From: Caldicellulosiruptor hydrothermalis 108
Lineage (GTDB): Bacteria; Bacillota; Thermoanaerobacteria; Caldicellulosiruptorales; Caldicellulosiruptoraceae
Length of the DNA stretch: 64,000 nt
Assembly (NCBI RefSeq): GCF_000166355.1
Contig: NC_014652.1
Coordinates: forward strand, 340,001-404,000
Reading direction: 5' to 3'
Shown: positions 17,361 through 58,026 of the stretch, piece after piece
Layout: every line of letters starts with the position of its first letter
Position numbering within the stretch: the first letter of the stretch is position 1
Notes under the pieces: generated by a model
What the model was told of the DNA's origin: nothing
Database searches by the model: none
What the model saw: only the letters and a program-made list of their open reading frames with translations
Translations under genes and position numbers: made by a program

Positions 17361-17517
17361 ATCACTACCATTTTCAAAAAGCTTGTGCTTTTAAAATGCT
17401 TTTTTTAAGAGGCAGAAAAGCTTTTAAAAATAAGGTACATAAGGGGCTAAAAAAGGACAAAATACCCCTTCTTGGTCTTTACCACCTTGACTGTTCTTCC
17501 CACCGAAGACAGTACAA

Positions 17518-17745
17518 GGCATCTCAAGCAGGCAGGTCTCCTGGCTCGCACCTCATCCAAAGCCCTCTTTGGCCTTCCCAGAAGACAAGCTCCACTTCCA
17601 AAAGAGGAACCACACCTTCCAGTGGCAAAAGTTATTTGAGGACTTGTCAGTGCTCACAGTAGCGGGGGCTGCAGCGGATTTTCACCGCTTTCCCTATTAA
17701 GCCGCCAAATGGCAGCACCTGCTTGATAGGTAAAAGGCCTGTTGC
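17518..17745 (-). ncRNA. cobalamin (B12) riboswitch
   Basis: Read on the minus strand it shows the standard elements in order: AGGTGC near the 5' end, the core AATAGGGAA, GGTGAAAATCC, CAGCCCCCGCTACTG, the B12 box GCCACTGG, and the closing GAGCCAGGAGACCTGCC. It lies about 260 bases upstream of metE in the same direction. A frame that runs through this region on the plus strand is a chance ORF. Confidence 0.95.
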
Positions 17746-39106: not shown

Positions 39107-39358
39107 ATGATTCAAATAACAAGACATGCCATAAAACGTTACAAGGAACGTATAATGCCCTGCTCAGACCTTGAAGCTGAACTGAATATTTTAAAAGCTG
39201 CCGTACATGGTATTCTCCTCTCCCGGAGAGGAAAGTACAAAGCTGTACAGTACGGTCCCGCCGTACTGATTATATACGAAAACGGTGGGATAGCCACCGT
39301 TAAGACTATCGAGCATGTAAAATTTTCTGGCTGGTGGAAAAAAGAAAAGATGTGGTAG
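39107..39358 (+). CDS. small protein of unknown function
   Basis: About 83 residues from ATG 39107. It begins with MIQITRHAIKRYKERIMPC, a pattern (HAxxRYxER) shared by a group of small phage and mobile-element proteins of unknown role, and ends with basic and aromatic residues. The predicted fold is compact alpha plus beta, reminiscent of RelE-like toxins but without clear catalytic residues. The stop overlaps the start of the tRNA-like element. Confidence 0.5.
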   Translation: MIQITRHAIKRYKERIMPCSDLEAELNILKAAVHGILLSRRGKYKAVQYGPAVLIIYENGGIATVKTIEHVKFSGWWKKEKMW

Positions 39359-39425
39359 GCATGGTAAAGCAACATGCCAGACTGTAGCTCTGGCGTTGTG
39401 GGTTCGTGAACCACTGCCTACCCCA
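39355..39425 (+). ncRNA. tRNA-like element with encoded CCA
   Basis: Acceptor-like arms GTAGGCA (39355-39361) and TGCCTAC (39415-39421) pair perfectly and are followed by C-CCA. An anticodon-like arm CCAGA-CTGTAGC-TCTGG (39377-39393) would present GTA (Tyr). A T-like arm GTGGG-TTCGTGA-ACCAC has a closing mismatch. The D-arm region has only 14-15 bases and does not fold well, and the large variable arm of bacterial tRNA-Tyr is missing. So this is a degenerate or mimic tRNA of 71 nt rather than a normal one. Confidence 0.45.
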
Positions 39426-57754: not shown

Positions 57755-57997
57755 GGCGGTGGTAACGCCACTCTCCCCTGACAGAGTCCTGCGTGATATG
57801 TCTGTCTTGAAATCGCTTTTGATTTCAGGACAAGTGGGGAGACCCACTTAAAAGGGCGCAAGTTCCTGTTTATTGGGACAGGGGCTATGGCTTTCCCAAA
57901 TACCGCCTGCTGGGGCTGGGAAAGCCTGAAAGGCGGACTACAAATACCCCAGCCACCAAACTTGTGCAATTTTGCACAGTTTGGTTGACCAGGTCAA
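57755..57997 (+). ncRNA. highly structured non-coding region (RNA or single-strand origin)
   Basis: No reading frame with a plausible start covers it. Stems: TGTCTTGAAATC/GATTTCAGGACA (57803, 57821), AAGTGGG-GAGA-CCCACTT (57832-57849), CCTGT/ACAGG (57865, 57878), GGCTTTCCC/GGGAAAGCC (57889, 57918), CCGCCT/AGGCGG (57903, 57931), GCTGGGG/CCCCAGC (57909, 57947) and a 13-bp hairpin at 57956-57984, ending with the palindrome TTGACC-A-GGTCAA (57985). Three of the stems interleave as pseudoknots. Local GC is well above the surroundings. Strand is not certain; the GAGA tetraloop favours plus. Confidence 0.6.
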
Positions 57998-58026
57998 GAT
58001 AATAGCACTGTTTGTTATTAACGAGC

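Follow-up and report, generated by a model that had tools for sequence, protein, structure and literature searches.

A structured element at positions 57755 to 57997 of a 64,000-nucleotide stretch of the Caldicellulosiruptor hydrothermalis 108 genome (contig NC_014652.1, positions 340,001 to 404,000; the whole stretch is hereafter called the window) was analyzed. Sequence comparison identifies it as what is left of an IS607-family TnpB element, namely its right end, after loss of tnpA and of almost the entire tnpB gene, and its + strand carries an RNA with three interleaved stems, termed the A-B-C RNA. The explanation favored here, which we regard as reasonably probable, is that this RNA represents a 5' leader carried by transposons and retained by genes once the transposon has decayed, and that it perhaps also belongs to the guide RNA of TnpB. 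A previous inspection of the window (the original prediction) had placed the feature before the HU gene of an integrative and conjugative element (ICE). It is not specific to this ICE but is a decayed transposon end lying within it, of a kind dispersed throughout the genus and with relatives in other phyla.

Covariation of three interleaved stems

All stems named in the original prediction are present in the window, namely stem A (9 bp), stem B (CCGCCT/AGGCGG), stem C (GCTGGGG/CCCCAGC), a hairpin with a GAGA loop, a hairpin at 57956-57984 and a palindrome. On either strand, the predicted folding of the region surpasses that of shuffled sequence by about five standard deviations (z of -5.3 for the + strand and -5.6 for the - strand). 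The three stems follow the order A-B-C-A'-B'-C', usually complemented by a further hairpin (D). No linker separates the 5' strands of stems B and C, and an unpaired A-rich stretch is near-invariant.

In a set of 71 sequences, compensatory changes were detected at 8 out of 8 counted pairs of stem A, and the structure as a whole had a covariation score of 0.339, as compared to 0.122 after shuffling. Since stems B and C were fixed in this set by construction of the core pattern, variants of both were recovered using a covariance model with stem A as its sole structure. Among these variants, stem C was paired in 98-100% of cases and showed compensatory changes at 5 of 6 pairs (GCTGGG/CCCAGC to GCCGGG/CCCGGC, GTTGGG/CCCAAC, GCCGAG/CTCGGC, and GTTAGT/ACTAAC), whereas 2 of 5 pairs did so in stem B (CCGCC/GGCGG to GCGCC/GGCGC and CCGCT/AGCGG). 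For each of the two stems, the paired fraction exceeded that of all 2000 shuffles. Stem B is the weakest of the three, because its first-pair change stems from one sequence group of a single genome (G039). Compensatory changes in homologues, proposed originally as a check, were thus found in stems A, B and C, and the mutual interleaving of the stems is genuine rather than a product of chance. As each stem features compensatory changes of its own, the alignments indicate that each pairing is used, either together or in turn; the latter would correspond to the conformational switch suggested originally. Furthermore, G-U exceeded A-C combinations at stem A (60:13, 27:1, and 13:7), indicating that the + strand is the RNA.

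Rfam covariance models, including RAGATH-18, did not match the element at gathering thresholds or at lax E-values, in agreement with the earlier statement that no known family was recognizable. The A-B-C RNA is a family missing from Rfam, with an unusual topology.

Intact elements and their insertion into Shine–Dalgarno sites

In total, 12 out of 12 genomes of the genus contained at least one match to the element, 11 of them beyond a short core beside uxuA, with up to ten matches per genome. In other copies, a TnpB reading frame of approximately 490 amino acids is located upstream and reads into the element, and in many of them an IS607-type serine recombinase (TnpA) is encoded above tnpB. An intact TnpA from Caldanaerobacter matched NF033518 (1.5e-67; 226.8 bits against a cut-off of 110) and also featured MerR and Resolvase domains. 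Judged by TnpA and by recombination at GG, the relatives of the window copy are members of the IS607 family, supporting the suggestion that the feature is a structured RNA of mobile elements.

TnpB scored above the cut-offs for TIGR01765 and TIGR01766, and a TnpB profile search reached Cas12f structures; a PDB search with a single TnpB sequence returned none. The RuvC residues D-E-D are retained in most copies (D254 and E317 invariant, D387 in at least 90%), the third aspartate being lost in the TnpB of L006. Scores for guided_TnpB (NF040570; 40-58 bits) and Pfam TNB (17-19) remained under the respective cut-offs of 100 and 26.3, and no good zinc-finger match was obtained. By these two scores, the TnpB is of a divergent lineage. 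At one locus (L058, 992-1102), a copy of the RNA lies convergent with a TnpB of another, 402-amino-acid lineage.

The terminus is shared by 40 aligned long copies (...TTTGGTTGACCAGG) and is followed by variable sequence, with GG at both element ends. GGAGG closes the left flank in 30 out of 33 copies with a readable left end, with little conservation farther left, and an open reading frame (ORF) starts 3-20 nt past the right end in 34 of 39 copies, as compared to 13% of random positions; the intact copy L002, for instance, precedes gyrA. When the left flank through GGAGG was joined to the right flank after CCAGG, the products resembled ordinary Shine–Dalgarno (SD) and start codon sites, and matched uninterrupted sister-genome sequence for 16 out of 18 copies. 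These comparisons indicate that intact relatives insert by recombination at the GG of SD sequences. Since GGAGG stays on the left, and the host spacer and start codon stay on the right, the gene acquires the right end of the element as its new 5' leader. The GGAGG flanks fit the target-adjacent motifs (TAMs) AGGAG and GAGGG measured for other IS607 TnpBs (PMC11061315), a report making no mention of ribosome-binding sites, and a GG crossover is described for the IS607 element ISXfa1 in PMC10711439. Within the literature searched, which was covered partially, no paper stating a connection between IS607 and SD sequences was found.

RNA copies without detected TnpB

Copies for which tblastn detected no TnpB in the fetched upstream DNA, mostly 1-1.7 kb, were termed orphans, a definition under which a diverged TnpB could escape detection. 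The core-pattern search located the RNA in other Bacillota, Aquificota, Thermodesulfobacteria, Desulfobacterota, and others, mainly thermophiles. Within Aquificota it was found in 85 out of 136 genomes with up to 35 matches per genome; these counts are lower bounds owing to stricter filters, and include TnpB-bearing copies. Chance matches in coding sequence probably account for most of the longer-spacing pattern hits from GC-rich genomes and for 12 out of 13 viral hits.

An ATG opening an ORF of at least 60 amino acids occurred within 60 nt of 67 out of 77 orphans, as compared to 18% for random positions. The genes concerned encode, according to best NCBIfam matches, EF-G, acyl carrier protein (ACP), Hsp20, Hfq, HtpX, the ribosomal proteins S13, L21, and S20, Rho, and serine hydroxymethyltransferase (SHMT); others were assigned by inspection. 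The interval between uxuA and the next gene holds an orphan in 12 out of 12 genomes of the genus (L003, 1460-1570 on the - strand; L015, L025, L052-L056, L060, and L061); in two of them the sequence is strongly diverged with the pairing intact. The htpX leader of ten Aquificota genomes, with no TnpB detected, varies in stem A and hairpin D while the pairing is kept. The radA locus has a TnpB-bearing copy (L189) in one genus and, at the corresponding position, an orphan (L204) in another. Remaining element parts are usually absent beside orphans.

Two loci (L057, about 993-1039, and L059, about 1001-1038) carry lone long palindromes formed by hairpin D together with the CCAGG terminus, with no other part of the element present. 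At L436 (537-620, - strand), a weak match to Alpha_RBS, the alpha operon leader, lies just downstream of an orphan RNA and before rpsM.

The copy in the window

The window copy comprises the following features, all on the + strand:

57756-57993: 5'-truncated right end of an IS607-family TnpB element (own-genome match; aligned with 39 other long copies of the genus; relatives have tnpB, and often tnpA, upstream)
57756-57851: relic of the tnpB 3' end, in frame to the stop codon TAA, AVVTPLSPDRVLRDMSVLKSLLISGQVGRPT (translation; tblastn 100% to TnpB residues 461-490)
57807-57827: hairpin TTGAAATCG..TGATTTCA inside the tnpB tail (folding, copy alignment)
57834-57847: hairpin GTGGG-GAGA-CCCAC with GAGA loop (variable or absent in other copies)
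57861-57886: hairpin AGTTCCTGTTTATTGGGACAGGGGCT (conserved among mobile copies)
57889-57897: 5' strand of stem A, GGCTTTCCC (pairs with 57918-57926)
57903-57908: 5' strand of stem B, CCGCCT (pairs with 57931-57936)
57909-57915: 5' strand of stem C, GCTGGGG (pairs with 57947-57953)
57918-57926: 3' strand of stem A, GGGAAAGCC (covariation)
57931-57936: 3' strand of stem B, AGGCGG (covariation)
57937-57946: A-rich linker between the 3' strands of stems B and C
57947-57953: 3' strand of stem C, CCCCAGC (covariation)
57956-57984: hairpin D (in mobile copies and most orphans; unrelated sequence, pairing preserved)
57985-57993: right terminus TTGACCAGG with the IS607 GG (CCAGG could pair with an upstream YYTGG in intact copies)
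57994-58013: predicted TnpB guide position of an intact element, by analogy to PMC11061315 and PMC10711439; ordinary flank without a gene start in the window

A second copy, 88% identical, is present in the same genome, together with a shorter match to the core elsewhere. A break at position 57756, within one base of the originally given start at 57755, is common to the window copy and the orthologous copy of genome G002; other copies extend further upstream. The original statement that the region holds no credible ORF stands because the tnpB gene is truncated, although 57756-57851 is in-frame tnpB 3' coding sequence. Likewise, the palindrome TTGACC-A-GGTCAA (57985-57997) exists, but it is half element and half flank and was seen only in the window copy and its ortholog; its position is taken by TTGACCAGG plus variable sequence in other copies. 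The window copy is probably an inactive relic, since the tnpB-proximal part with the potential for the usual guide-RNA pseudoknot is gone and the copy is not located at a gene start. No match to the element was obtained by blastn against plasmids and phages, and no uninterrupted site of the window copy was found, related ICEs differing upstream.

Compared to L005, the window copy is 93% identical between genomes G000 and G002, whereas the flanks reach 97-98%, and L005 resembles other copies within G002. Gene conversion among element copies is a likely explanation for this gap in divergence. Elsewhere in the window, a cobalamin riboswitch (17514-17737, - strand) and a tRNA match barely above the gathering threshold (39355-39422, + strand; score 31.5 against 29) were noted.

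Leader, guide RNA, or other functions

According to the favored explanation, insertion at the GG of an SD sequence would place the right end of the element in front of a host gene, where the A-B-C domain would act in cis as a portable leader keeping this gene expressed, by giving ribosomes access, by stabilizing the mRNA 5' end, or by both. The host gene would come to depend on the leader, which would be retained when the transposon decays. In intact elements the domain overlaps the predicted guide-RNA region of TnpB, in which it may also serve as a scaffold domain.

Several points weigh against this explanation. The cis-leader role is deduced from where the RNA lies and how it is conserved, the genes downstream of orphans are unrelated and share no common function, diverged TnpBs may be hidden among the orphans, and descent of orphans from transposons, as opposed to capture of an older leader by transposons, is not proved. 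The domain is furthermore located at the right end, beside the guide position, in almost every copy bearing TnpB, and the tnpB frame remains open through the whole core in 7 out of 13 measured elements of other genera (L437, L432, L374, L347, L410, L386, and L345). Such a core may be constrained both as protein-coding sequence and as RNA, and its location equally suits a guide-RNA scaffold.

These last observations lead to the strongest alternative, less probable in our view but to be taken seriously, namely that A-B-C-D represents the 3' scaffold of the guide RNA (omega RNA/reRNA) of this TnpB lineage, and that orphans are solo guide RNAs of decayed elements, some serving TnpB in trans. Precedents exist, as TnpB generates its guide RNA out of the mRNA that encodes it (PMC10278001), and a pseudoknot next to the guide is required in IS607 guide RNAs (PMC10711439, PMC11061315). 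However, four copies (L014, L031, L032, and L051) lack exactly A-B-C, keeping the upstream part, hairpin D, and CCAGG (CCTGG in one); tnpB was read upstream of two, while L051 and L032 were judged on the element sequence only. The domain is hence separable from the element. Moreover, orthologous orphans retain covariation with no TnpB detected, indicating selection on the domain, orphans in general mostly lack the rest of the element, and the usual pseudoknot could instead be formed by YYTGG/CCAGG, which is possible in 42 out of 44 copies. The YYTGG of this candidate pairing includes a conserved tryptophan codon and is absent in the window copy. We accordingly view the A-B-C domain as a leader module that is separable from the element and may also act as a guide-RNA scaffold.

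A ligand-sensing riboswitch or protein-binding leader would suit the compact pseudoknotted fold, the near-invariant A-rich stretch, and the placement directly upstream of start codons; it appears improbable, given that the downstream genes are not functionally coherent, up to 35 copies occur per genome, and no Rfam riboswitch matched. Even less credit is given to a self-cleaving ribozyme separating element and gene transcripts: interleaved pseudoknots, a near-invariant core, and scattering beside unrelated genes and mobile elements would be compatible with it, but no resemblance to known Rfam classes was found, and the stem arrangements of HDV, twister, and pistol differ from the A-B-C RNA. 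A DNA feature, such as a recombinase site or the single-strand replication origin considered originally, can practically be dismissed despite hairpins at a transposon end and good folding of both strands, because of the G-U excess over A-C, the strand-specific placement of orphans at start codons on the coding strand, and the orphans without transposon ends.

Relation to known TnpB systems

The IS607 TnpBs with RAGATH-18-derived reRNA (PMC11061315) share with the present elements the serine recombinase, an RNA at the tnpB 3' end, and experimental TAMs that match the left flanks described here. They differ in TnpB length (approximately 390 as compared to 455-560 amino acids here), in their RAGATH-18 RNA, which the A-B-C RNA does not match, in a reRNA separate from the coding sequence, where the corresponding region overlaps tnpB here, and in a description lacking the interleaved domain. 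For the ISXfa1 reRNA, the available sections of PMC10711439 report the GG crossover with a flanking nucleotide retained in the scaffold, and a pseudoknot of guide-adjacent nucleotides with an apical loop, for which CCAGG/YYTGG is the candidate counterpart; those sections describe no extra interleaved domain and no stand-alone 5'-leader copies. TldR proteins, nuclease-dead TnpB-like repressors (PMC13418256), likewise tie TnpB relatives and guide RNAs to host gene regulation, whereas most copies of the TnpB studied here still have the RuvC residues, and the orphans, as RNAs without TnpB, seem to function in cis.

Implications

Our results join a biochemical fact, the TAMs of IS607 TnpBs, to a genomic one, insertion at ribosome-binding sites with the element end becoming a gene leader. 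They also add an RNA family missing from Rfam that occurs in several phyla and reaches high copy numbers in front of genes for EF-G, ribosomal proteins, Rho, Hfq, and HtpX. Tentatively, and with less confidence than in the leader role itself, we propose a widespread triple-pseudoknot cis leader, distributed by TnpB transposons that target SD sequences and retained by dependent host genes after transposon decay, a transposon-to-leader route to conserved 5' untranslated regions (5' UTRs) in several thermophile phyla. If the leader role is true, transposon ends would be a source of conserved 5' UTRs, and how genes survive insertions targeted to their ribosome-binding sites would become a directly testable question.
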